DNA of 64,000 nucleotides from Candidatus Fimenecus excrementigallinarum. Its GTDB lineage: Bacteria; Bacillota; Clostridia; Oscillospirales; Acutalibacteraceae. Shown here one piece after another: positions 2,509-18,214 of this stretch. Position numbers and translations under genes: made by a program. The notes below the pieces were generated by a model. It was given only the letters and a program-made list of their open reading frames with translations, was not told where the DNA came from and ran no database searches. Each line of letters starts with the position of its first letter. The stretch's first letter is position 1. Location of the stretch: NCBI GenBank assembly GCA_018714805.1, contig DVMW01000043.1, forward strand, positions 1 to 64,000, written 5' to 3'.

Positions 2509-4503
2509 ATGAAAGCCTTGAAACGCTTCGGAAACGCGCTGACCTCGCGCGCGGGCGCATACATTTTTTATGTGCTCGCCATGCTTGCGGTCGTTTTCCT
2601 GGAGAGCGCGACTTGGGCGTATACCTGGATTGCCGAATTGTATCCGCTCGGCAGCCAGTTTGTCCCGACGCTGCGCATTGTAATCCTTGTATTTGCCGGA
2701 CTTGACGTGCTGTACCTGCTTGCGCGCGCCTTTTCCAAAACGGAGGAGCTCAATAAACCCCTCAAGGTGTTCCGCGCCGTCTTTGTTCTTTCGGCAGTCG
2801 TAAGCCTTGTCGCGTTCATCTACACGTTCGTGTTGGTGTTCGGCCTCGACAACGGCGTGCAGGCGACGCTGTTTGCGCGCGGCCTGCAGGCAATCACGCA
2901 GTACCTTATCCCGCTGGGCTTCGTCTGCCTGCTGCCGCTGCCGCTGCTTTTCACGACGACCCCTCTGAAGACGGCCAAGGCCGCGGTCGCTTCGGCGCTT
3001 GTCGCGGTGCTTATCGTGCTGCCTTTGCAAATCGATTTCGGCTCCGGCGAGCTGACCGCCGACGAGCTTCCCGCGCTGACAATGCGCTCCGAGGACCTGC
3101 TGGCGGGCGCAGCCGTTTCGTTTGAAAGTCTTAAGTCCGGCGAAGAAGCGGACGCCGCGAACCTGCTCGACGGCGACGACAAAAACTATTGGACCCCGCA
3201 GGACCCGGCGCGCGACCCGGCCGAAGGGCAGGAGGACGGCAACAACAGCTACGTTGAATTCCAGCTTCCGCGCGCGGTGACATTTAACACCGCCATTATC
3301 GAAGAGGAAGGCAACGAGGCGCAGTATTTCCGCCTGCAGGCCTTTGTGGACGGCGAGTGGGTCACGGTCTATCAAAGTGAAAAGATTCAGGCGATGCGCC
3401 TTTGCAGCTTCGACGCGGTCACGACCGACCGGGTGCGGTTGTCCGTGGACAAGTTCCGCAGCAGCGATACGCCGGTGCGCATCCGTGCGCTCCGCCTGTA
3501 CAACGAGCCGCAGCGCGCCGCCGAGGATTTTGAGGTAACGGCGTACCAGCGTCTCGACGGCGACGTGCCGACCGAGATTCTTGCGCGCGGCGAAGCGTAT
3601 GCGCGCAATTACGCCCGCTTCTACGACGTCTACAGCACGGTGCTTGTTTTCGCGGCGGTGCATTGGGACGAGCAGGGCAATATGAACTTCGGCGACATCG
3701 GCGAAGAAGGCTTTGCACGGGAGATTGCGGCGCTGCGCGAGCTTATCTCGATGCGCTCCAATCCCGACCACCGGGTCAAAATCATTGTGACGGCTCTTGC
3801 GGACGGCGCCTGGGGCGACGGGCACAACGGCGTCAACACCTATATGGCGCAGTATTGGGAATCGGTCGCGGACAAGATTGTTGCGTTCGTGGAAAAGTAT
3901 GATTTTGACGGCGTGGACATCGACTGGGAGTATCCGCAGACCGCGGCGGACTGGGCGGTGTACGACCAGTTTATTGCGCGGCTCGACGACGGCATGAACG
4001 CCGGCGGGCGCGAACGTATCCTTTCCGCGGCGCTGTCGGCCGGCAGCCTCGGCATGGCGCCCGAAACGCTTGCGCGCTTTGACCAGATTCAGTTTATGGC
4101 GTATGACGGCAGCGACATAGACGGCTACCAAAGCTCGCTGCAGCAGGCGCAGGAGGGACTTAAAGCGTTCCGGGAAAGCGGCGCGGATTTGTCGCAGATT
4201 AACATCGGCATCGCCGCCTACGGCCGGCCGGTGAACGGTTCGCCGTACTGGGCGACCTGGCGCGATTTGGACGAGGCGAATTACTGGGACAGCAAGTATT
4301 ACAACGTCGCGGACGCCGGTCAGATTTACGAGGGCACGTTCTGCGCCCCGGCGCTTGCGGGCGACAAGACGGCCCTGGCCATTCTTTCCGGCGCGGGCGG
4401 CGTGATGGTGTTCCGCACGGGCTGCGACAAGACGATGGACGACCCGAACAGCGTCGCGTGCGGCATTGAAAACGCACTCGACCGCTACTTTGAAAACTGG
4501 TAA
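2509..4503 (+). CDS. Membrane-anchored GH18 family glycosidase with discoidin-like domain (664 aa)
   Basis: Residues 1-175 contain about five transmembrane helices (near 16-35, 52-72, 89-112, 127-148, 156-174). A beta-sandwich resembling F5/8 type C (discoidin) carbohydrate-binding domains follows (about 200-335, with ANLLDGDDKNYWTP). A GH18 TIM barrel covers about 345-660. The GH18 signature FDGVDIDWE is intact at 466-474, with catalytic E474 and partners D470 and D472. An odd number of helices would place the enzymatic part outside the cell. Family members cleave chitin, GlcNAc-containing N-glycans or peptidoglycan-type glycans, or are spore-cortex SleL-like. The start has a strong AAGGAGAG site and a terminator follows. 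The fusion of a polytopic membrane domain to GH18 is unusual. Confidence 0.85.
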   Translation: MKALKRFGNALTSRAGAYIFYVLAMLAVVFLESATWAYTWIAELYPLGSQFVPTLRIVILVFAGLDVLYLLARAFSKTEELNKPLKVFRAVFVLSAVVSLVAFIYTFVLVFGLDNGVQATLFARGLQAITQYLIPLGFVCLLPLPLLFTTTPLKTAKAAVASALVAVLIVLPLQIDFGSGELTADELPALTMRSEDLLAGAAVSFESLKSGEEADAANLLDGDDKNYWTPQDPARDPAEGQEDGNNSYVEFQLPRAVTFNTAIIEEEGNEAQYFRLQAFVDGEWVTVYQSEKIQAMRLCSFDAVTTDRVRLSVDKFRSSDTPVRIRALRLYNEPQRAAEDFEVTAYQRLDGDVPTEILARGEAYARNYARFYDVYSTVLVFAAVHWDEQGNMNFGDIGEEGFAREIAALRELISMRSNPDHRVKIIVTALADGAWGDGHNGVNTYMAQYWESVADKIVAFVEKYDFDGVDIDWEYPQTAADWAVYDQFIARLDDGMNAGGRERILSAALSAGSLGMAPETLARFDQIQFMAYDGSDIDGYQSSLQQAQEGLKAFRESGADLSQINIGIAAYGRPVNGSPYWATWRDLDEANYWDSKYYNVADAGQIYEGTFCAPALAGDKTALAILSGAGGVMVFRTGCDKTMDDPNSVACGIENALDRYFENW

Positions 4504-4593: not shown

Positions 4594-4646
4594 ACGTCAG
4601 TAAATTTGCGGTTGTTTTGTATCGGGTAAAGAGGGGCTTGCAGCAC

Positions 4647-7349
4647 ATGAAAAAAATCTCTTGCGTCCTCCCGAAATGGGGGCCTTATTCCAAAAAATAC
4701 AGCGGCATTTCCCGCATTACGGACCACGAGGAACAGCAGGGCGTGCGGTTCGACCTGGTGGTGAGCCCGGCGCTTGCCAATACGAACACCTGCCCGCCCA
4801 ACGTGACCATTCCCGTCGGCGTCCACCCGTGGACGGCGCGCGCGGATTACAGCCATTACGCGTACCGCTGCGATTTGGAGTGGAAGGACGTCATTTACGC
4901 CGACGTCGCCTTTACGCGGCTTACCGATGAAAGCGTGCTGGTATGCACGACCCTGGTCAACAATTCGGAGATGACGCAGAATTTTCTGGTCAACTATTTT
5001 TCCGCGCTGGAATTTCCCGGGCGGAAAACGGCGAAGCTGTCGCTGCCCGCGCGCTGCGTCTGGAAAAAAGCGACGGACTATGCCGCCTATGCCTATCGCA
5101 CGCCGCGCCCGTGGGACGCGCAGTGCATGGACGCCATGAAAAAGGGCGAGTTTTTGGACGACCGGTTCACAGAGCGCAAGGGTCTCGGCGACCGGGACGA
5201 CAACCGCTATATTTTGCAGAAGTTCCCGCGCTTCGGGGAAGAGGCGGGGGATTCGGTCTCCTATACGCTTGAAACCGACCGCCCGTTTTCGGAGCCGGTG
5301 CTCACCGTTCGCTACCGGACCGTGGACGCGCGCGACTGCGCCTTCACGCTCAACGGCGAGCCGGTCGTTTTCCCGGCGACAAACGGGGAAATGGGCCTTG
5401 TGCGTTTTCAGACGCCTGCGCTGGCAGAAGCGCGCATCGACCTGTCCTTTGTGTCGGCGGGCACGGGCGCGCTGGAGCTCGACTTTTTAGCCGTTACGCA
5501 GCGCGAGGACGCGGAAAAAATCGCGGTTGAAGTAACAGAGAACCCATATATGCCGGAAATTTCCACCGCGCTTCTTTCGGACGGCGCGAAAGCGGAATAC
5601 CGCTATGCGGGGGTGGAAAAGCCCTTCGTGCTGCGCACCTTTGACCGGCAGACGCGCTTTCGCAATTTCCTGACCGGCGCGCTCGAGGACAGCCCGACCT
5701 CCCGCATTACCCAGCCGGACGAGAGCTTCGGCGATATGCTCGAGCAGTTTTCCGGGTCCTTTTCCGAAAAGCACAGCGACCCGGGCTTTTATCACAACGC
5801 CGTCGTCCATACCATTTATGCGCAGCCCCATACCGTGCAAAAGCAGTATGCGGTAATCTCCTACGGCGAGACCGATTACCGCGAAAAAGCCGAATATGAA
5901 GCTGCCGCCCGGGCGGCAGCGGACGCGGTGGAGCCGGACGGCTTTACGGCGGCGGGCAGGCCGTACGCCTTTTCCTGCGGGCTTTTGCGCGCGGCGCTGT
6001 TCCAAAACGTCGTCTACCCGCTATACTGCCACGGCGAATATGTCCCGCACCAGACGCCCGGCAAGCGCTGGGATTCCTTTTACACCTGGGATTCCGGCTT
6101 TATCGGCCTTGCCATGGCGCAGTTTGCGCCCGAAATTGCCGACGCGACGCTGGATTTGTATTTTGCGGAGCTTGACAACCCCGACTATGCTTTCCTGCTG
6201 CACGGCTCGCCCGTGCCGGTACATCTGTACCAGTATCTGGAAATGCTCAACCATACGAACGACAAGACGCATTTGTACGGCTACTACGACCGCGCCAAAC
6301 GGTTCTATGAATTTTTGGCCGGCCGCACGCACGGCTCCACGACCGCACGCTTCCAAAGCGGCCTGACGACGACCTTCGACTACTTCTACAACTGCGCGGG
6401 CATGGACGACCTGCCGCCGCAAAAGGAGATGTACCGCCGCGGTCTGCAGCGCGTCTGTGCGCCCGCTATTTCCACGTCGCAGGTCATCCGCACCGCAAAG
6501 CTTTTGCGCATTGTGGCGCTTCAGCTGCAAAAGGAGGCGGATGTTTCCCGGTTTGACCGTGACATCGAGCGCCTGACAGAAGCCTTGCAAACCTACGCCT
6601 GGGACGAGGAATGCGGCTATTTTTCCTATGTCGTGCACGACGGCGAGACGGGCAAGCCGGTGGACAAGCTGCGCGCCGAATCCGGCGAAAACCTTAACAA
6701 AACGCTCGACGGCATTTACCCGCTGCTTGCCGGTGCGGTCACAAAGGAACAGGAGCGGCGTCTGCTCGGGCATTTGCAGGACGACCGGGAGATGTTTACG
6801 CCGGTCGGCATCAGCGCGGTCGACCGCACCGCCGGATACTATATCACGAACGGGTACTGGAACGGCAACGTGTGGCTCGCGCACCAGTGGTTCGTCTGGA
6901 AGACGATGCTTGACCTTGGAGAGACGGATTTTGCCTGGCGGATTGCAGAAACGGCTCTGAAGGCCTGGAAGCGCGAGGTGGAGTATTCCTACTACACCTT
7001 TGAAATGTTCAGCATCGAGACCGGCCGCGGCGGCTGGTTCCACAACTTCGGCGGCCTGTCGTCCCCGGTCTGCCTGTGGGCGAACGCCTATTTTAAGCCC
7101 GGCTCGCACCAGACCGGCTTTGACGCCTATTGCCTGCACGCGGCGTTCGAGGCGGATTTCCGCGCGTTCTCCGGCAGGTTCCGCAATTATGCCGACCGCC
7201 CGGGCACGCTGCTGTTGTGCATGGCCGAATCCGGGGAATACCGCGCGTTCTGCAACGGCGAGCTTGTTCCGGCTTATACGCGTATGCCCGGCGTGCTCGA
7301 GCTGCCGTTAGCCCCCGGGGAAAACGACGTCCGCGTTCAGCTTGTGTAA
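4647..7349 (+). CDS. GH63-like (alpha/alpha)6-barrel glycosidase (900 aa)
   Basis: The C-terminal half (about residues 450-850) carries the hallmarks of GH63 and related trehalase/glucosidase barrels: KRWDSFYTWDSGFIGLA, then TPVGISAVDRTAGYY and NGYWNGNVWLAHQWFVWK. The N-terminal half is beta-rich, as in bacterial GH63 proteins. There is no signal peptide, so it acts in the cytoplasm, probably on alpha-glucosides or mannosyl-glycerate-type substrates; the substrate is not readable. I start at the ATG at 4647, which follows GAGGGG, rather than at an in-frame TTG at 4617. The 3' end overlaps the convergent BofC-like gene by 13 bases. Confidence 0.8.
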   Translation: MKKISCVLPKWGPYSKKYSGISRITDHEEQQGVRFDLVVSPALANTNTCPPNVTIPVGVHPWTARADYSHYAYRCDLEWKDVIYADVAFTRLTDESVLVCTTLVNNSEMTQNFLVNYFSALEFPGRKTAKLSLPARCVWKKATDYAAYAYRTPRPWDAQCMDAMKKGEFLDDRFTERKGLGDRDDNRYILQKFPRFGEEAGDSVSYTLETDRPFSEPVLTVRYRTVDARDCAFTLNGEPVVFPATNGEMGLVRFQTPALAEARIDLSFVSAGTGALELDFLAVTQREDAEKIAVEVTENPYMPEISTALLSDGAKAEYRYAGVEKPFVLRTFDRQTRFRNFLTGALEDSPTSRITQPDESFGDMLEQFSGSFSEKHSDPGFYHNAVVHTIYAQPHTVQKQYAVISYGETDYREKAEYEAAARAAADAVEPDGFTAAGRPYAFSCGLLRAALFQNVVYPLYCHGEYVPHQTPGKRWDSFYTWDSGFIGLAMAQFAPEIADATLDLYFAELDNPDYAFLLHGSPVPVHLYQYLEMLNHTNDKTHLYGYYDRAKRFYEFLAGRTHGSTTARFQSGLTTTFDYFYNCAGMDDLPPQKEMYRRGLQRVCAPAISTSQVIRTAKLLRIVALQLQKEADVSRFDRDIERLTEALQTYAWDEECGYFSYVVHDGETGKPVDKLRAESGENLNKTLDGIYPLLAGAVTKEQERRLLGHLQDDREMFTPVGISAVDRTAGYYITNGYWNGNVWLAHQWFVWKTMLDLGETDFAWRIAETALKAWKREVEYSYYTFEMFSIETGRGGWFHNFGGLSSPVCLWANAYFKPGSHQTGFDAYCLHAAFEADFRAFSGRFRNYADRPGTLLLCMAESGEYRAFCNGELVPAYTRMPGVLELPLAPGENDVRVQLV

Positions 7350-10202: not shown

Positions 10203-10210
10203 GAACGCTT

Positions 10211-11500
10211 ATGAAACAGAAGCTTTTACTGCAAAACGCGAGGGTCGTGGACCCTTCCCAGAAATTGGACGCAGTCTGCGACGTCCTGTGTGCGGACGGC
10301 CTGATTGAACGGGTCGCGCCGGATATTCGGGCGTGCGGGGATATGCGGGTCATCGACGCTTCGGGGCTTGTTTTAGCCCCGGGGCTCGTTGATTTACATA
10401 CGCACCTGCGCGACCCCGGGCTTACGCAGAAGGAGGATATTTTGTCCGGCGCTGCGGCCGCTGCCGCGGGCGGCGTCACCACACTCTGCGCTATGCCGAA
10501 TACCGCTCCCGCCTGCGACACGCCGGAGACGGTGCGCTATATTTTGGACAAGGCAAAGGATGCGCCCTGCCGCGTTTTGCCGGTCGGCGCCATTACAAAG
10601 GGCCTTGCCGGCAAAGAGCTGACCGATATGCACGCCTTAGCCGAAAGCGGGGTTTGCGCATTTTCGGACGACGGCGTCCCCGTGGCGACGGCGGATTTGA
10701 TGGCAAAGGCGCTCGCGCGCAGCGCGCAGCTCTCTCTGCCCGTTTTTGCCCACACGGAGGACAGGTCGCTTTCTCGCGGCGGCATTGTCAACCGCGGCGT
10801 TTGGAGCGAGAAGCTCGGCGTCGGCGGCATTCCCAATGCCGCGGAGGACGTCGGCACGGCGCGTGAGCTGGCGCTTTTGATGAACGCGCCGGAAGGTGCG
10901 CGGCTGCACATCTGCCATGTCAGCACCGCGGGCAGCGCCGCCATGCTTGCCGACGCAAAAGCACGCGGCCTTGCCGTCACGGCGGAGACCTGTCCGCACT
11001 ACTTTATGTTTACGGAAGACAAGCTGGCGCTCGGCGATGCGGATTACCGCATGAATCCGCCGCTTCGCACGGAAAAAGACCGCGCGGCGATAGAGCGTGC
11101 GGTTTTGGACGGCGTGATTGACGTCATTGCGACCGACCACGCGCCGCACACGCCGGAGGAAAAGGCGGATTTTCTGACCGCGCCCAACGGCGTCATCGGG
11201 ATGGAAACGTCGTTTTCGGCGAGCTATACCGCGCTGTGCCTGCCGGGGAAGCTTACGCTTTCCGAGCTGATTTCTAAAATGTCCTGCCGGCCCGCGCAGA
11301 TTCTCGGCGCAGGCGGCGGCACCCTAAAGCCCGGCGCGCGCGCCGACCTGTTTTTGTTCAACCCGGACGCGTGGTGGACCGTGGAGCCTGCACGCCTGCA
11401 CGGCAAATCGAAAAACTGCGTGTTCAAGGGCTGCCGCCTGTGCGCCCGTATAAAAATGACGGTCCTTGCAGGACGCATTGTCTTTCAGGAGGAAAATTAG
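10211..11500 (+). CDS. pyrC: Dihydroorotase (429 aa)
   Basis: Third step of de novo pyrimidine synthesis: reversible cyclisation of carbamoyl-aspartate to dihydroorotate. It is a type I amidohydrolase with zinc ligands H63-x-H65 in DLHTHLRDPG, a downstream HICHVS and TAETCPHY, and the catalytic Asp D309 in ATDHAPH. Length is normal for the family. The start is given at ATG 10211; an in-frame ATG at 10199 overlapping the PBP stop is possible, and neither has a strong ribosome binding site. It heads the run pyrC-pyrF-carA-carB-pyrK-pyrD. Confidence 0.95.
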   Translation: MKQKLLLQNARVVDPSQKLDAVCDVLCADGLIERVAPDIRACGDMRVIDASGLVLAPGLVDLHTHLRDPGLTQKEDILSGAAAAAAGGVTTLCAMPNTAPACDTPETVRYILDKAKDAPCRVLPVGAITKGLAGKELTDMHALAESGVCAFSDDGVPVATADLMAKALARSAQLSLPVFAHTEDRSLSRGGIVNRGVWSEKLGVGGIPNAAEDVGTARELALLMNAPEGARLHICHVSTAGSAAMLADAKARGLAVTAETCPHYFMFTEDKLALGDADYRMNPPLRTEKDRAAIERAVLDGVIDVIATDHAPHTPEEKADFLTAPNGVIGMETSFSASYTALCLPGKLTLSELISKMSCRPAQILGAGGGTLKPGARADLFLFNPDAWWTVEPARLHGKSKNCVFKGCRLCARIKMTVLAGRIVFQEEN

Positions 11501-11509
11501 GAGGTTATG

Positions 11510-12427
11510 ATGGGATTTGACAGATTGATTGCGCGCATCCGCGCCTTACAAAACCCGACGGTTGCCGGGCTTGACCCGAAGCTTTCCTATGTCCCGGAAT
11601 TCATCCGTCGGGAAGCGTTTTCCCGCTTTGAAAATCCGTTCGAGGCGGCGGCGGAAGCCATTTTAACGTATAACAAAGGCCTGATTGACGCGCTTTGCGA
11701 CGTTGTGCCCGCCGTCAAGCCGCAATGCGCGTATTACGAGATGTACGGCTGGCAGGGTATGCGCACGCTGGCGCAAACGATTGCCTATGCCAAGGAAAAG
11801 GGAATGTTCGTTATCACCGACGGCAAGCGCAACGACATCGGCGCGACGATGCAGGCGTATGCGGCCGCGCACCTCGGGGAAACGCAGCTTGACGGCGGCG
11901 TGCTGCTGCCCGCCTTTGACGCGGACGCCTTGACGGTGAACGGCTATCTCGGCACGGACGGCATTGCGCCCCTGACAGAGGTCTGCACAAAAAAGGATAA
12001 GGGGATTTTTGTCCTTGTCAAGACCTCGAACCCGTCCTCCGGCGAGCTGCAGGACCGCCTGCTCGGCGAAGAACCCGTCTACCGCGCCATGGGCGCTATG
12101 TGCGAGCGCTGGGGCGAGGGCACCGTCGGGCAATACGGCTATTCCGCCGTCGGCGCCGTGGTCGGCGCGACGTATCCGCAGCAGCTTGAGGAGCTGCGCG
12201 CGGCGCTGCCGCATACGTTTTTCCTGGTGCCGGGCTACGGCGCGCAGGGCGGCGGCGCCAAGGACGTAGCGCCCGCCTTTGACAAAAACGGGGACGGCGC
12301 CATCATCAATTCCTCCCGCGGAATTTTGTGCGCGTACCAGAAGGCGGGCTGCGAGGAACACGCTTATGCCGAAGCGGCGCGCAAAGAAGCGATTCGGATG
12401 CGCGACGACATCATTTCCGCGCTGTAA
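11510..12427 (+). CDS. pyrF: Orotidine 5'-phosphate decarboxylase (305 aa)
   Basis: Last step of UMP synthesis. The long bacterial form (about 300 aa) has the catalytic D104-x-K106-x-x-D109 motif in VITDGKRNDIG, and a C-terminal VPGYGAQGGGA phosphate-binding loop. Two ATGs lie side by side (11507 and 11510); the second is placed better behind GGAGG. Only a few bases separate it from pyrC. Confidence 0.95.
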   Translation: MGFDRLIARIRALQNPTVAGLDPKLSYVPEFIRREAFSRFENPFEAAAEAILTYNKGLIDALCDVVPAVKPQCAYYEMYGWQGMRTLAQTIAYAKEKGMFVITDGKRNDIGATMQAYAAAHLGETQLDGGVLLPAFDADALTVNGYLGTDGIAPLTEVCTKKDKGIFVLVKTSNPSSGELQDRLLGEEPVYRAMGAMCERWGEGTVGQYGYSAVGAVVGATYPQQLEELRAALPHTFFLVPGYGAQGGGAKDVAPAFDKNGDGAIINSSRGILCAYQKAGCEEHAYAEAARKEAIRMRDDIISAL

Positions 12428-12447: not shown

Positions 12448-13530
12448 ATGAACAAGGGGCAAACGCCGGCCTATCTGCTGCTGGAAGACGGCTCGCTGTT
12501 TACCGGGTATTCCATGGGGAAACAGGGGACTTCCATCGGCGAGGTTGTTTTCAACACCTGCACCGCGTCTTACACCTCCCTGCTGTCCGACCCGACCTAC
12601 TACGGGCAGATTGTGGCACAGACCTATCCGCTCGTCGGCAACCGCGGCGTTTCCGCCGAGAACCGCCCGTCCGACATTATGGCGAACGGCTATATCGTGC
12701 GGGAATGGTGCGACGTGACCGACGACGGCGAGCTGTCGCTGGACGCATATCTGCGCAAGCAGGGGATTGTCGGCCTTTGCGGCATTGATATGCGCCGCCT
12801 GACGCGCGCGCTGCGCGACAAGGGCTATGTCAAGGGCGCGATTACGGACGACCTTTCCGATAAAGAGGGCCTGCTTCGCCGGATTCGCGCATATACCATT
12901 TCCGGCGCGGTGCACGCCATTACGACGCGCGCGCCGCAGCACGTGCCGCTTGCGAACGCGTCCTACCGCGTCTGCGTGCTGGATTACGGCTTCCCGCGGG
13001 ATATTTTGCGCGGGCTTACCGCGCAGGGGTGCGAACTGGATATTCTGCCGGCCGATTCGACGGCCGAGCAGTTGCTCGCCTTGTCGCCGGACGGTATCTT
13101 TTTATCGGACGGACCTGCCGACCCGGACGACGACCCCGCGCTGGTCCGTGAAATCTCGGCCATTATAAAGCTCGGGATTCCCGTTTTTGCCGTCGGGCTC
13201 GGCCACCAGATGCTTGCGCTCGCCAACGGGATGGAGATTGAAAAAATGCAGAAGGGCCACCGGGGCTCGAACCAGCCGGTTTTCTGTACGCATACGGGCC
13301 GGTTCATGGTTACCGAGCAGAACCACGGTTACGCGGTGCGCCGCGAGAGCGTGCGTTCGGATACGGCGGAAATCCTTTTGTATAACCTGAACGATAAGTC
13401 CGTAGAAGGACTTTTGTACCGCTGGTTTTCGGGCTTGAGCGTCCAGTTTACGCCAAGCGCGGACCCGGACAGCTCGACGGCATGGGTGTTCCCGCGGTTT
13501 GCGGAAATGATGGAGGAGGCGCGCAAATGA
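12448..13530 (+). CDS. carA: Carbamoyl-phosphate synthase small subunit homologue lacking the glutaminase triad (360 aa)
   Basis: The fold is clearly CarA. The N-terminal domain has EVVFNTCTASYTSLLSDPTYYG-like sequence and GLCGIDMRRLTRALRDKG, followed by a class I glutamine amidotransferase domain with HRGSNQPV and EQNHGYAV. The catalytic residues are missing. The nucleophile Cys in the usual GICLGHQ is Gly (G250 in AVGLGHQ). The catalytic His and Glu of QFHPEA are Thr and Ser (T335 and S337 in QFTPSA). The frame is unbroken, the ribosome binding site (GAGGGGAG) is strong, and carB overlaps the stop by ATGA. It should not hydrolyse glutamine. It may be a structural or regulatory partner of the equally altered CarB. 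Confidence 0.9.
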   Translation: MNKGQTPAYLLLEDGSLFTGYSMGKQGTSIGEVVFNTCTASYTSLLSDPTYYGQIVAQTYPLVGNRGVSAENRPSDIMANGYIVREWCDVTDDGELSLDAYLRKQGIVGLCGIDMRRLTRALRDKGYVKGAITDDLSDKEGLLRRIRAYTISGAVHAITTRAPQHVPLANASYRVCVLDYGFPRDILRGLTAQGCELDILPADSTAEQLLALSPDGIFLSDGPADPDDDPALVREISAIIKLGIPVFAVGLGHQMLALANGMEIEKMQKGHRGSNQPVFCTHTGRFMVTEQNHGYAVRRESVRSDTAEILLYNLNDKSVEGLLYRWFSGLSVQFTPSADPDSSTAWVFPRFAEMMEEARK

Positions 13531-16526
13531 ACCGGTCCATTCAAAAAGTCCTGGTAATCGGCGCGGGCCCCGTCGTTGTCGGCCAGTCGAGCGAGTTCGA
13601 CCTTGCCGCCGTCCAAATGTGCCGCGCGTTGAAGGCGGAGGGCGTGACGGTCGTGGCCGTCAATTCCAATCCGGCGACGGTTATGACCGAGCACGGGGTT
13701 GCGGATATCGTTTATATGGAGCCGCTGACCGGGGAGGCCGTCAAAAAAATCATTGCGATAGAGCATCCCGACGCCGTCCTTTCCACCGCCGGCGGCAGGA
13801 CCGGCCTGGAGATTGGTCTGGAACTTTCGCAAAACGGGTACCTCGAGGAGCACGGCGCGGTCCTTTTGGGCGCGCAGCCCGAGGTGATAAAAAGCGTGCG
13901 TTCCCCGCAGGCGCTGCAGGGTATGCTCGAGCGCGCCGCAGAGCCGTTTTTGCCGTCTGTCGTTGCGGCGAGCAAAGCGGAAGCGGCGGCCTTTGCCGAA
14001 CGGGTCGGGTATCCTGTGCGCATACAGGCCGCTTTTTCGGCGGAAAGCCCGGAAAGCGCTGTTTGTCAAACGCCGGATGCGCTCAAGGCCGCCTTTGCGG
14101 ATTGCGCGGCGCGCTCTCTGGTCGGGCAGGCGCTTTTGCAAAAATGCGTGGACGACTATAAGGAGATTGAGCTGGTCGTTGTGCGTGACGCGGACGGCAA
14201 CGCGGTCTGCGTATGCAGCACGGAAAGCATGGATACCGTCGGCGTTCATTCCGGCGACAGCGTTACGGTGCTGCCGGCGCAGACGCTGACCGACGCGGAG
14301 CTGCAAAAGCTGCGCCGCGTTGCGAGGAAGCTCACGAACTATTTGCAGATTGTCGGCGTGTGTCTGGTGCGTTTCGCGCTGCACCCGACGAACGGCAGCT
14401 ACTTTGTTTTGGACGTTGAACCCGAGCTTGACCGTGTGACGGCGTTTATATCGAAGGCGACCGGCTACCCCATAGCCTCCGTCTGCGCGCAGGTTGCGCT
14501 TGGAAAACGGCTGTATGAGATTGAAAATCCGCTGACCGGCGTTACTTCCGCGGCCAACGAGCCGGCGCTCGACTACTGCGCGGTCCGCGTGCCGAAGTGG
14601 TCGTTCGAATCCTTCGGCGTGAACGTGGACAAGCGCCTGGGTGCCGCCATGAAAGCGACCGGCGAGGCCTTTGCGATAGGCACGGGTTTTGAGCTTGCGT
14701 TGATGAAGGCGGTGCGCTCCACCAACCCGAAGTCGCAGCACATCGGGCTGCCGAAGCTTCGCTTGATGACCGACGAGGAGCTGACGGCGCGGCTGCGCAC
14801 GCCGGACAGCGAGCGGCTTTTCACGCTGTATGAAGCCGTCAAGCGCGGGTATTCCCAAAAGGAGCTGCAAACGCTGACGGGCATTGCGCCGTTTTTCCTC
14901 TCGAAGCTGAAAAATATAGCGGATGCGGAATCGGCGCTGGCCGCTTCTCTGTCCGAGGAAACCTATCTGCGCGCGAAGCGCCTCGGTTTTCTCGACACCG
15001 TCATTGCCGGCATCTGCGGCGAGGAAACGCTTCCGTTTTCGGCTCGCCCCACCTACAATACGGTCGACACCTGCGCGGCGGAATTTGACGTGCGCAAGCC
15101 GTATTTCTATTCGGCGTGGGACGAGGAAAACGAAGCGGCGATGTTTTTAGAGGCGCATCCGCAGCAGAAAAAGAAGGTGCTGGTTGTCGGCGCCGGCCCG
15201 ACTTCTATCGGACTCGGTACCGACCGCGACTGCGCGGCGTTTGCCGCTTTGCGGACACTGCGGGATTTCGGCTGCGAGACGGTTGTCCTCAACAACAACC
15301 CGGCCGCCAATACGACCAATCCTGAAGCGGCGGACAAGCTTTACGTCGACCCCATCACATCCGAGGACGTTGCGGCGGTCTGCGCGACGGAAAAGCCGGA
15401 CGGCGCGATTCTTGCGTTCGGCGGCGGCGCCGCGGTCCGCTGTGCGCAGGCCCTGCGGGACATGGGCGTTGCGGTCTACGGCCCCGACGACCGCTCGCAC
15501 GCTTTGCTGAAAAACAAAATTGCCTTCTTCGACCTTTTGGATTCGCTCAATATCCGGCACACGGCCCTGCGGCGTCCGCTTGTCGGCAAGGGCGCGCAGG
15601 TCGACGTTTTGACGGACGGCCGGGATTTCCTGATTCCCGGAATCTGCGAGCTGATTGAAAAGGCGGACGTCCATTCCGGCGACTCGATTTCCGTCTACCC
15701 GTCCGTTACGCTGTCGGATGCGGACAAGGCGGTGATTGTGGAGTACACCGCGCGTATTGTGGCCGCCTTGCAGGTCCGGGGGCTTTTGAACCTGCAATTC
15801 GTTTTGTATGACAACGCGGTTTACGTTTCCGCCGCAAGCGATGTGGCAACCCGCAACATCCCGTTTTTGTCCAAGGCGACGGCGCTGCCGATTGTGGAGT
15901 TTGCCACGCGGCTGATGCTCGGCGAGTCTATCTCCGACCTTGGCGTGGGCAGCGGGCTGTACCGCGAACCGTCGCGCGCGTTTGTCCGTGTGCCTGTGTT
16001 CAGCTTTGAGCAGCTCGCGGGCACGGATGTGCAGCTCGGCGGGGAAATGCAGTCTACCGGCGAGGTCATCGGCGTGGGCAGGACGTTCGACGAGGCGCTT
16101 TTGAAGGGCTTTGTCGCATCCGGAATGCGCATCAAGCGAACGGGCGGCGTGCTGATTTCCGTCGCCGATTCCGACAAGCCCGCCAGCGCCGTGCTGGCCG
16201 CGCAGTTCCAAAAACTTGGGTTCAAGGTATATGCGACCTCCAATACGGCAAAGCTTTTGAATGCGAACCATGTGGCGGCAAACGCCGTGCGCAAGCTGCA
16301 CGAAGGCGGGCCGAATACCCTGACGCTGATTCTGCAAAACCGGCTTTCCTATCTGGTCTCGACCGCGCAGCCGCAGGCGGCGAAAAGCGGGGACGAGGTG
16401 CGCATCCGGCGGACGGCCCTGCTGCGCCGCATCCCGGTGCTGCCCTCCGTGGAAACGGCCGGCGCGCTTGCACGCTGCCTTGCGGAAAGCAGCGCGGCGG
16501 AGGAACTCCACGTGGAACGTCTGTAA
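13527..16526 (+). CDS. carB: Carbamoyl-phosphate synthase large subunit homologue with degenerate ATP-grasp sites (999 aa)
   Basis: The two-fold CarB architecture is recognisable: GAGPVVVGQSSEFD, VNSNPATVMTE and VGVHSGDSVTVLPAQTLTD in the first half; GAGPTSIGLGTDRD, KADVHSGDS and IPFLSKATALPI in the second. The catalytic signatures are not kept. EMNPRVSRSS is DVEPELDRVT (D296, E298, E300), and the second-half EVNPRASRT reads AASDVATR (A769, S771, V773). The glycine-rich PSFTLGG and PSYVLGG loops are absent. About 60 residues are missing around 679-690. Length is 999 against about 1,065. The C-terminal MGS-like allosteric domain (VLISVADSDKPAS, KVYATSNTAKLL) is kept. It is unlikely to make carbamoyl phosphate. 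A GGAGGAGG site precedes the start. Confidence 0.9.
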   Translation: MNRSIQKVLVIGAGPVVVGQSSEFDLAAVQMCRALKAEGVTVVAVNSNPATVMTEHGVADIVYMEPLTGEAVKKIIAIEHPDAVLSTAGGRTGLEIGLELSQNGYLEEHGAVLLGAQPEVIKSVRSPQALQGMLERAAEPFLPSVVAASKAEAAAFAERVGYPVRIQAAFSAESPESAVCQTPDALKAAFADCAARSLVGQALLQKCVDDYKEIELVVVRDADGNAVCVCSTESMDTVGVHSGDSVTVLPAQTLTDAELQKLRRVARKLTNYLQIVGVCLVRFALHPTNGSYFVLDVEPELDRVTAFISKATGYPIASVCAQVALGKRLYEIENPLTGVTSAANEPALDYCAVRVPKWSFESFGVNVDKRLGAAMKATGEAFAIGTGFELALMKAVRSTNPKSQHIGLPKLRLMTDEELTARLRTPDSERLFTLYEAVKRGYSQKELQTLTGIAPFFLSKLKNIADAESALAASLSEETYLRAKRLGFLDTVIAGICGEETLPFSARPTYNTVDTCAAEFDVRKPYFYSAWDEENEAAMFLEAHPQQKKKVLVVGAGPTSIGLGTDRDCAAFAALRTLRDFGCETVVLNNNPAANTTNPEAADKLYVDPITSEDVAAVCATEKPDGAILAFGGGAAVRCAQALRDMGVAVYGPDDRSHALLKNKIAFFDLLDSLNIRHTALRRPLVGKGAQVDVLTDGRDFLIPGICELIEKADVHSGDSISVYPSVTLSDADKAVIVEYTARIVAALQVRGLLNLQFVLYDNAVYVSAASDVATRNIPFLSKATALPIVEFATRLMLGESISDLGVGSGLYREPSRAFVRVPVFSFEQLAGTDVQLGGEMQSTGEVIGVGRTFDEALLKGFVASGMRIKRTGGVLISVADSDKPASAVLAAQFQKLGFKVYATSNTAKLLNANHVAANAVRKLHEGGPNTLTLILQNRLSYLVSTAQPQAAKSGDEVRIRRTALLRRIPVLPSVETAGALARCLAESSAAEELHVERL

Positions 16527-16542: not shown

Positions 16543-17310
16543 ATGCTGCAAGCCGATTTTCCCATTGTTTCCATCAAACGATTGAACGCGACCACCTATT
16601 ATTTCGTGCTTGCCTGTCCCGCCTTGGCAGAGGAAAGCTGGTGCGGCCGCTTCGTCCATATCCGCTGCGGGGAAAAGCCGCTGCGCCGCCCCATTTCCAT
16701 TTGCACCATTGACAAGGACCGCGGCCTTCTTTCCCTGGTTTTTGAGGTGCGCGGCGAGGGGACGGCCTGGCTCGCCGAACGAAAGACGGGCGATTTGCTC
16801 AACGTGCTGGGACCGCTTGGCAACGGATTTTTCCCTGACCGGGACCGACCCGCGATTTTTGTCGGCGGCGGCATCGGCTGCCCGCCCATGCTCGGCGCCG
16901 CGCAGGACTACGGTCCGAACGCACAGGCCATTCTGGGCTTCCGCTCGGAAAAACAGGCGATTCTGCTTTCGGAGTTCCGGGACAGCTGCAAGCGCGTCGA
17001 CGTCACCACCGACGACGGCTCGCTCGGGCAGAAGGGCTTTGTGACGGATGTCCTGCAAAAGCGGCTTGCAGCACAGCCGAACGCAGCCGTCTATGCCTGC
17101 GGTCCGACGCCGATGCTTAAAAACGTAGCCGCGCTGTGCCGGGAACGGGACGTGCCGTGCTTTGTGTCGCTGGAACAGAGAATGGGCTGCGGCGTCGGCG
17201 CCTGCCTTGTCTGCGCGTGTAAGACGCACGAGGCGGACGGCGAGCATATGCGCCACGTCTGCAAGAACGGCCCGGTATTTGACGCAAGGGAGGTCGTTTT
17301 CGATGGCTGA
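16543..17310 (+). CDS. pyrK: Dihydroorotate dehydrogenase B electron-transfer subunit (255 aa)
   Basis: PyrK passes electrons from PyrDB to NAD+. A ferredoxin-reductase-type FAD domain with RRPISICTI is followed by an NAD-binding domain with GGGIGCPP and ACGPTPML. A C-terminal [2Fe-2S] site has C216, C221, C224 and C240. The ATG at 16543 follows AAGGAGAGGAG. Its last codons overlap pyrD by 8 bases, which suggests translational coupling of the two subunits. Confidence 0.95.
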   Translation: MLQADFPIVSIKRLNATTYYFVLACPALAEESWCGRFVHIRCGEKPLRRPISICTIDKDRGLLSLVFEVRGEGTAWLAERKTGDLLNVLGPLGNGFFPDRDRPAIFVGGGIGCPPMLGAAQDYGPNAQAILGFRSEKQAILLSEFRDSCKRVDVTTDDGSLGQKGFVTDVLQKRLAAQPNAAVYACGPTPMLKNVAALCRERDVPCFVSLEQRMGCGVGACLVCACKTHEADGEHMRHVCKNGPVFDAREVVFDG

Positions 17311-18214
17311 TTTGCACGTAGACCTTTGCGGCGTGCGTCTGAAAAATCCCGTCATTACGGCGAGCGGCACGTTTGGCTTTGGGCAGGAATACGCCCGGCT
17401 TTATGACATCCAAAAGCTCGGCGGCATTTCCTGCAAGGGTACGACGCTGCACGAACGGCCCGGCAATTTGCCGCCGCGTATTGCGGAGACGCCGTCCGGG
17501 ATGCTCAATTCCGTCGGCCTGCAAAATCCCGGCGTCGACGCTTTTTTAAAGGATGACCTTCCCGCGCTCGAAAAGCTCGATTTGGCGGTGCTCGCGAATG
17601 TGGCGGGGAGCACGGAGGACGAATACGTCGAAACCATCCGCCGCCTGCAGGGGAGCGCGGTCGATATTATCGAGGTCAACATCTCCTGCCCGAATGTAAA
17701 AGCCGGGGGTGTTTCCTTCGGGACGGACCCGAGCGCGGTCGAGCGCATTACGCGGCTTTGCAAAGCCGCCTCCGATAAGCCAATCATGATGAAGCTTTCG
17801 CCGAACGTGACCGACATCGCCGAGATTGCCGCCGCCGCGGAGGCGGGCGGCGCGGACGCCGTATCGCTCATCAACACCCTGACCGGGATGCGCATCGACA
17901 TCCGCACGCGCCGTCCGATTTTGCGCAACAACACCGGCGGCCTTTCCGGCGCGGCGGTTTTCCCGGTCGCCCTTCGGATGGTCTGGCAGGTTGCGAACCG
18001 CGTGCAAATCCCGGTCGTCGGCATGGGCGGGATTACGCGCTGGCAGGACGCGGCCGAGATGCTGCTGGCCGGCGCAAGCGCTGTGCAAATCGGCGCGGCG
18101 AATTTTACGGACGCCTTTACGCCGCTGCACATCATAGAGGGCTTAAACGCGTATTTGGACGAAAACGGCCTCGCTTCGGTTTCGGAGCTGGTCGGGCAGG
18201 TGCGGCCATGGTGA
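17303..18214 (+). CDS. pyrD: Dihydroorotate dehydrogenase, class 1B catalytic subunit (303 aa)
   Basis: Oxidises dihydroorotate to orotate using FMN, handing electrons to PyrK. The TIM barrel shows TASGTFGFG at the N-terminus, the active-site Cys C129 in VNISCPN (class 1 enzymes use Cys, class 2 Ser), LINTLTGM, and the FMN phosphate loop GMGGI with GASAVQIG. The class 1B assignment fits the adjacent pyrK. A GGGAGG site precedes the ATG at 17303. The stop overlaps ruvX by 7 bases. Confidence 0.96.
   Translation: MADLHVDLCGVRLKNPVITASGTFGFGQEYARLYDIQKLGGISCKGTTLHERPGNLPPRIAETPSGMLNSVGLQNPGVDAFLKDDLPALEKLDLAVLANVAGSTEDEYVETIRRLQGSAVDIIEVNISCPNVKAGGVSFGTDPSAVERITRLCKAASDKPIMMKLSPNVTDIAEIAAAAEAGGADAVSLINTLTGMRIDIRTRRPILRNNTGGLSGAAVFPVALRMVWQVANRVQIPVVGMGGITRWQDAAEMLLAGASAVQIGAANFTDAFTPLHIIEGLNAYLDENGLASVSELVGQVRPW

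Follow-up and report, generated by a model that had tools for sequence, protein, structure and literature searches.

The window, by which is meant the whole 64,000-nucleotide stretch of DNA analysed here (Candidatus Fimenecus excrementigallinarum, GenBank assembly GCA_018714805.1, contig DVMW01000043.1, positions 1 to 64,000 of the forward strand), carries in a pyrimidine (pyr) operon a gene pair, carA' and carB', homologous to the genes for the small and large subunits of carbamoyl-phosphate synthetase (CPSase), a textbook enzyme in which three coupled active sites are linked by a tunnel. Judged by alignment, all three catalytic sites of this pair are destroyed, with the proteins themselves and a pocket for uridine and inosine monophosphate (UMP/IMP) still in place. 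The preservation of both suggests that in this group of gut Clostridia a dead CPSase pair has been turned into a regulator or scaffold, and a regulatory or structural pseudo-subunit is the mechanism with the best support. An earlier note on this DNA had described a pseudo-synthetase kept by selection, and this is supported by a live pair in the same genome, low ratios of nonsynonymous to synonymous substitution (dN/dS, or omega), open frames and the modelled fold; from this constraint we infer that CarA'B' may have a new function.

Catalytic losses and preservation of the pair

Catalytic positions were numbered by alignment to E. coli CarB (row L075), using the residues which we take from the CPSase literature to be catalytic in the two CarB halves and in the CarA triad. 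In keeping with the earlier claim that both ATP-grasp sites had been erased, only E215 and Q829 are left of the 17 tabulated catalytic-site positions. In the carboxyphosphate half (half A; R129, R169, E215, Q285, E299, N301 and R303) E215 alone is kept, with R129 replaced by P, R169 by Q, the loop glycines G175/G176 by E/S, Q285 by R, N301 by E, R303 by E and E299, conservatively, by D. Likewise, in the carbamate-kinase half (half B; R715, E761, Q829, E841, N843 and R845) all but Q829 are lost, with E761 replaced by G, E841 by A, N843 by S and R845 by V. The residues listed in the earlier note were all found as claimed, namely DVEPELDRVT from residue 296 with D296, E298 and E300, and A769, S771 and V773 in the second half, and the roughly 60 residues it reported missing correspond to 61 residues of the second ATP-grasp lid (E. 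coli 697-757, including R715, H754 and L756), for which none of the 12 main-clade CarB' rows has a counterpart. Its statement that the glycine-rich loops were absent did not hold for the first loop, which is substituted and not deleted. In CarA' the triad Cys269-His353-Glu355 has become Gly250, Thr335 and Ser337 such that glutamine hydrolysis should be lost, with Gly at Cys269 and Thr at His353 in all 22 pseudo-CarA rows read, L124, L125, L249 and L251 among them. As such the earlier observation was right but understated, CarA' being to all appearance catalytically dead as well.

The CarB' rows of the genus comprise a main clade (12 rows) and clade 2 (full rows from genomes G013, G017, G021, G022 and G028, with G008 and G422 assigned by residue pattern). 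In the main clade positions 129, 169, 176 and 299 are variable, position 299 being occupied by S in five rows, D in three, G in two and E and A in one each, and N301>E and Q285>R are found in 12 of 12 rows. Across the full-length genus rows N843>S and R845>V/T are present in 17 of 17, and at 15 CarB' positions all 17 carry a new residue in place of one common to at least 90% of 113 other CarB rows. The mean number of different residues per position in the 12 main-clade rows, given as plain means without a significance test, was 2.67 at the nine half-A catalytic positions, 2.17 over all columns and 1.0 at the five pocket positions described below. The active site of main-clade CarB' thus looks released, and the pocket not.

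The prediction that selection still acts on the pair was borne out, with codon-model omega far below 1 in the main clade for carB' (0.077) and carA' (0.085) and similar to that of operon neighbours (pyrC 0.113, pyrF 0.072, pyrK 0.102, pyrD 0.052); the gene encoding PBP1 gave 0.061, and the live genes 0.024 (carB) and 0.053 (carA). For carA', carB' and pyrK the sets drew on 11 of the 12 main-clade genomes (G014 excluded), for pyrC, pyrF, pyrD and PBP1 on eight (without G016, G019 and G025), for live carB on ten and for live carA on nine, gapped columns being dropped. In clade 2 (five rows each) omega was 0.043 for carB' and 0.032 for carA'. The six carB' domains ranged from 0.057 to 0.086, five main-clade pairs of moderate divergence (dS 0.44-1.38) from 0.034 to 0.106, and one clade-2 pair gave 0.056. 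The frame of 999 codons and its ATGA coupling to carA' were confirmed, as was neighbour-like codon use, the synonymous-codon correlation of carB' with six neighbouring genes being 0.963 in frame and 0.541 and 0.407 in the shifted frames. Full-length carB' homologues are all open frames, and the only interruption noted in either gene is a TAG, in frame and close to the carA' start, in G013, at a contig end of a 9% contaminated assembly. Neither the omega values nor the carB' frames show the relaxed selection or disruption that would mark a decaying pseudogene.

CarB' retains the Pfam complement of CarB (PF25596, PF02786, PF02787 and PF02142; preATP-grasp, ATP-grasp, oligomerisation and MGS domains), with the second ATP-grasp domain lacking its lid. 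Structure prediction and superposition, which the earlier note had proposed, indicated that the overall folds of both proteins are kept: the AlphaFold2 model of CarB' had a predicted local distance difference test (pLDDT) of 87.3 and template-modelling (TM) scores of 0.92/0.87 to 1c30_A, and that of CarA' a pLDDT of 90.3 and TM scores of 0.90/0.86 to 1a9x_B, from shallow input alignments (30 and 29 rows, the 30 being those for CarB'). CarB' scores 894.5 bits against NF003671, above the cut-off of 599, and 883.0 bits against the equivalog-domain model TIGR01369, below the cut-off of 1027, while CarA' scores 310.8 against TIGR01368, above the cut-off of 307.35, despite its lost triad. This is an annotation trap, in which a current curated model labels a dead protein carbamoyl-phosphate synthase large subunit.

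The live CPSase and the UMP/IMP pocket

A second carAB, such as the earlier note had suggested seeking, is present in the window genome (97.32% complete). Its CarB, with all checked catalytic residues, lies at the end of contig C33 (L038), where the first residues are cut off; the CarA (L119), at the end of contig C27, retains the CHE triad. Judged by catalytic residues, the genome therefore holds the live paralogue that a prozyme-like regulatory pseudoenzyme calls for. Aspartate transcarbamoylase (ATCase) was found above cut-off, with a second, weaker match that is probably ornithine transcarbamoylase (OTCase), such that, as far as the assembly shows, one live CPSase feeds both pathways. ATCase was above cut-off in 21 of 23 genomes and was not found in G025 and G028. 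Between the window genome (G000) and G026 the dS of live carB was 0.244 and that of the pyr operon genes 0.71-1.04, the low value for live carB perhaps reflecting expression bias or recombination.

In the MGS domain of CarB' residues S878, K884, T904, T907 and K923 correspond to E. coli S948, K954, T974, T977 and K993, K954 and T974 being presumed members of the UMP pocket. All five are identical in 12 of 12 main-clade CarB' rows, so that by sequence the pocket for UMP is retained. Thr977, Lys993 and Ser948 are given as residues of the allosteric UMP site of CPSase (PMC6245113). Outside clade 2, all 17 of the readable pseudo-CarBs, namely the 12 of the main clade with L124, L125, L244, L245 and L247, have K, T, T and K at positions 954, 974, 977 and 993. 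In the table of live CarB residues, which has 16 rows and does not include G003, G014 or the third CarB of G021, K993 is present in all 10 main-clade genomes and replaced by P or S in all six clade-2 genomes; G003 also keeps K993.

PyrI, the ATCase regulatory chain, was detected in none of the 17 pocket-keeping genomes and in five of six with a lysine-less CarB' (G013, G017, G021, G022 and G422); G008 has a fragment. It was not found in G028, which is 74% complete, nor in the 12 main-clade genomes, G423 or G424. It had been predicted beforehand that pocket-keeping genomes outside the genus would lack PyrI, and none of five had it, two of these (G423 and G424) having already been seen.

Distribution, order of loss and gene neighbourhood

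Dead CarB homologues were found in 24 genomes, one of them seen in part, from four genera of one family including Candidatus Fimenecus. Full-length homologues of the short CarB' occur in 17 of 59 genomes searched (the window genome included) at 47-100% identity, all of them among the 36 genomes of the genus; in G008 a contig end cuts the homologue after 266 residues, and G422 is a further carrier, giving 19 in the genus. Dead CarA' is present in 18 genus genomes, in 17 of which CarB' is dead in both halves (the 18th being G008). A survey of the order detected CarB' in five of 394 genomes, all of this genus, and a survey of the family gave nine matches in 398, namely three from the genus, five dead CarBs in three further genera (G440, G551, G553, G518 and G603) and G529, whose CarB is intact. 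Both surveys used an E-value limit of 1e-195, at which strongly diverged or split homologues may be missed. In the related-locus set 80 of 589 confirmed loci were kept, residue patterns referring to the matches listed; G551 corresponds to L124, G553 to L125 and L246 to L124, as matched by coordinates. Chance or assembly error as the origin of CarA'B' is ruled out by constrained homologues in 24 genomes.

The dead CarBs form one clade with a support of 100 in the Shimodaira-Hasegawa-like approximate likelihood ratio test (SH-aLRT) in two quick trees containing 14 and 12 dead rows (56 rows chosen from 137 CarB entries, and 29 rows). This clade adjoins L126 (plus L248 in the second tree) and is nested within the pyr-operon CarB clade, with L125, L244 and L245 on long branches and placed less certainly. 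Likewise, pseudo-CarA and the CarA of L126 form one clade (SH-aLRT 100) in a 55-row CarA tree.

Present-day proteins suggest the order in which the sites were lost. In L126 CarB is intact and CarA lacks the Cys. L124 and L247 combine a dead half B, in which R715 is missing and N843>S and R845>T are seen, with a half A that retains R129, R169, both glycines and E299 (RRGGEREDR). L124 shows N301>D and Q285>R, and L247 retains most of the lid, having 13 gaps in E. coli 690-764, equal to L246. Fimenecus CarB' has lost the second lid and half B, with half A eroded throughout in the main clade and the loop glycines, E299 and N301 lost in clade 2. Loss thus appears to have been stepwise, the glutaminase going first, the carbamate-kinase half second and the carboxyphosphate half last.

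Loss of Cys269 from CarA beside a CarB with its checked catalytic residues has also occurred repeatedly elsewhere, in L049, L051, L053 and L054 (clade 2) and in L028, L033, L126, L141, L147, L158, L160, L166 and L173, these CarAs being mostly scattered in the CarA tree. The CarB frame of L158 is broken into two parts. G429 (L141) and G431 (L173), of unknown completeness, have one CarA and one CarB match each, which points to ammonia-dependent CPSases in gut Clostridia. Many CarB frames in relatives of the order are about 270 residues too long (1325-1432 aa); in the one case examined, the extra C-terminal part (L141:9100-10026) matches diaminopimelate epimerase (PF01678, E 1.2e-56), an apparent CarB-DapF fusion.

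The pair is not confined to the pyr setting of the window (Table 1). In G021 and G022 (clade 2) carA'-carB' lies between PBP1 and yqgF, with pyrC-pyrF upstream and pyrK-pyrD downstream both absent and the pyr genes in another cluster. Since at the loci L124, L125, L249 and L251, from outside the genus, pyrC and pyrF lie upstream and pyrK lies downstream, loss of these flanks in G021 and G022 is likelier than later gain. In G422 (99% complete) carB' directly follows PBP1 with no carA' there, the one CarA of the genome being of the live kind, and in G603 carB' directly follows pyrF with no adjacent carA' at the locus, which was the part of that genome searched for CarA. CarB' is therefore the kept core, retained away from pyr genes. 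These clade-2 neighbourhoods were tabulated for G021, G022 and G422. The idea that the clade-2 pair is debris left after loss of pyrimidine synthesis was ruled out for G017, G021 and G022, in which pyrC-pyrK-pyrD-pyrF-pyrE-pyrB and a PyrI-like frame lie together elsewhere (names mostly from translations). At L252 (G529) an intact pyr-operon carB without adjacent carA is found in the order pyrC-pyrF-carB-pyrD.

Table 1. Coordinates in the window of carA', carB' and the adjacent pyr genes.
Feature	Position	Strand	Remarks
carA', CarA-like small subunit, 360 aa, glutaminase triad lost	12448..13530	+	Pfam PF00988 + PF00117
carB', CarB-like large subunit, 999 aa, both ATP-grasp active sites lost	13527..16526	+	
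ATGA overlap of carA' stop and carB' start	13527..13530	+	
Gly250 codon, at E. coli CarA nucleophile Cys269	13195..13197	+	
Thr335-Ser337 codons, at E. coli His353-Glu355	13450..13458	+	
carB' residues 296-300, eroded half-A metal/phosphate site (E. coli E299, N301, R303)	14412..14426	+	
Junction of missing half-B ATP-grasp lid (E. coli 697-757)	15579..15584	+	alignment-placed, approximate
carB' residues 769-773, erased half-B site (E. coli E841, N843, R845)	15831..15845	+	
carB' C-terminal MGS (allosteric) domain, residues 869-999	16131..16523	+	Pfam PF02142
pyrC	10208..11500 (start approximate)	+	operon neighbour; name from translation reading
pyrF	11507..12427	+	operon neighbour; name from translation reading
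pyrK	16543..17310 (start approximate)	+	operon neighbour; name from translation reading
pyrD	17303..18214 (start approximate)	+	operon neighbour; name from translation reading

Two frames lie upstream of PBP1, one GH18-like (2509-4503) and one large and glycosyl-phosphorylase-like (4617-7349), both named from translation reading only. No Rfam family reached its gathering score for an RNA leader anywhere in the window, and promoter and terminator scans gave counts close to those of shuffles, such that no support was drawn from them.

Candidate roles and known systems

It is tentatively proposed, at somewhat short of an even chance, that CarA'B' is a putative UMP-sensing regulatory pseudo-subunit that would act, prozyme-like, on the live CPSase or on downstream enzymes. 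Its ancestor would have been the pyr-operon CPSase, which would have lost all three catalytic functions, presumably because synthesis could pass to the second CPSase. UMP would be bound by the MGS domain of CarB', and CarB', joined by CarA' in genomes that have it, would use the retained oligomerisation and allosteric domains to associate with live CarAB and/or pyr enzymes, the live CPSase thereby being tuned or routed for pyrimidine synthesis. In E. coli CPSase UMP and ornithine alter the oligomeric state through the regulatory and oligomerisation domains (PMC6245113), and a mixed oligomer is plausible since CarB' keeps these domains. A more specific version, possible yet doubtful, is that the CPSase heterodimer has become a dedicated pyr-operon UMP receptor controlling the live CPSase or ATCase in trans, its UMP lysine having been lost once the clade-2 ATCase gained PyrI. 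If true, such a receptor would sense pyrimidine sufficiency, and the CPSase it controlled would be the cell's one live copy, shared with arginine synthesis.

Several observations weigh against the proposed pseudo-subunit. In clade 2 the lysine K993 falls in a gap in five of five full CarB' rows and in L202, where T974 is replaced by V too, and since omega of clade-2 carB' is nevertheless 0.043, UMP sensing is neither its sole role nor its sole constraint. The third CarB of G021 keeps K993, clade-2 half A retains R129, R169, E215 and R303 in five of five and Q285 in four of five, and no full or partial CarB' was identified in 18 of the 36 genus genomes, three of which (G004, G005 and G018, assemblies 75-85% complete) gave no CarB match at all. 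All PyrI matches fell short of the curated cut-off, four of seven non-pseudo genomes searched (G034, G037, G043 and G529) lack PyrI as well, and clade 2, essentially a single evolutionary event, accounts for most of the pattern. The pocket residues may instead have been kept for stability.

A structural scaffold without nucleotide sensing, in which CarA'B' would hold pyr enzymes or the live CPSase together and pass on labile carbamoyl phosphate, is less likely. The main-clade operon with pyrC, pyrF, pyrK and pyrD, the even constraint across the six carB' domains and the retention of the gene in clade 2 after the pocket lysine had gone are all consistent with it, whereas an invariant effector pocket beside freely varying main-clade active sites is not predicted by it and the clade-2 pair sits away from its pyr genes. 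Less likely again is a new ligand or catalytic role, with the eroded clefts binding a ligand other than ATP or bicarbonate, or an unrelated, for example nucleic-acid, regulation. The fixed replacements at positions 301, 285 and 843, the 15 positions fixed to a new residue across the genus and the half-A residues R129, R169, E215 and R303 of clade 2 would fit such a role; the main-clade variation at positions 129, 169, 176 and 299 argues against a reused half-A catalytic site.

It is improbable that a residual CPS-like partial reaction, such as bicarbonate-dependent ATP hydrolysis by a UBA1691-type half A, accounts for retention. The half-A residues that L124 and L247 retain beside a dead half B speak for it, but N301>D and Q285>R are found even in L124, and the idea is inapplicable to the window, where half A lacks R129, R169, both glycines and N301. 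Slow decay of a redundant, still undisrupted copy under weak selection is already disfavoured and most improbable: the faster evolution of carB' than of live CarB, the missing adjacent carA' in G422 and G603, the TAG in G013 and the 18 genus genomes with no copy identified would be in keeping with it, but carB' frames are full-length across clades at 39-47% identity to the window protein, omega matches that of the pyr neighbours, codon use is in-frame and the pair is retained where flanking pyr genes are gone.

A regulatory pseudo-subunit would make this pair a clean test case for a dead paralogue controlling a branch-point enzyme common to arginine and pyrimidine synthesis, and the apparent stepwise shutdown of three sites with the protein kept amounts to a natural dissection of the remaining enzyme, above all its allosteric domain. 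The pair resembles E. coli CPS II (CarA/CarB; 1a9x/1bxr/1c30) in domain order, fold, gene pairing and UMP/IMP pocket residues, but lacks the glutaminase triad, both ATP-grasp sites and the second lid. Human CPS I (5dou) keeps a glutaminase-like part without the nucleophile Cys in a structural or regulatory capacity but remains a synthetase, whereas both synthetase halves of the window pair are dead. No description of a dead CarB or CPSase paralogue was found among the matches listed for the open-access literature, judging by titles and abstract openings. In trypanosomatids, prozymes are dead paralogues by which AdoMetDC and deoxyhypusine synthase are activated (PMC5201418, PMC3663545), and the window genome similarly holds a dead paralogue alongside a live copy; regulation of the partner has been shown there and is proposed here, and the window system is a two-subunit, three-site bacterial enzyme. 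Closer in pathway is the inactive dihydroorotase of Pseudomonas-type ATCase dodecamers and fungal CAD-like proteins, which is needed for some ATCase assemblies (PMC4581275, PMC6022934). There too an enzyme of the pyrimidine pathway has been kept as a dead subunit, although the enzyme is a different one and its assembly partners are known.

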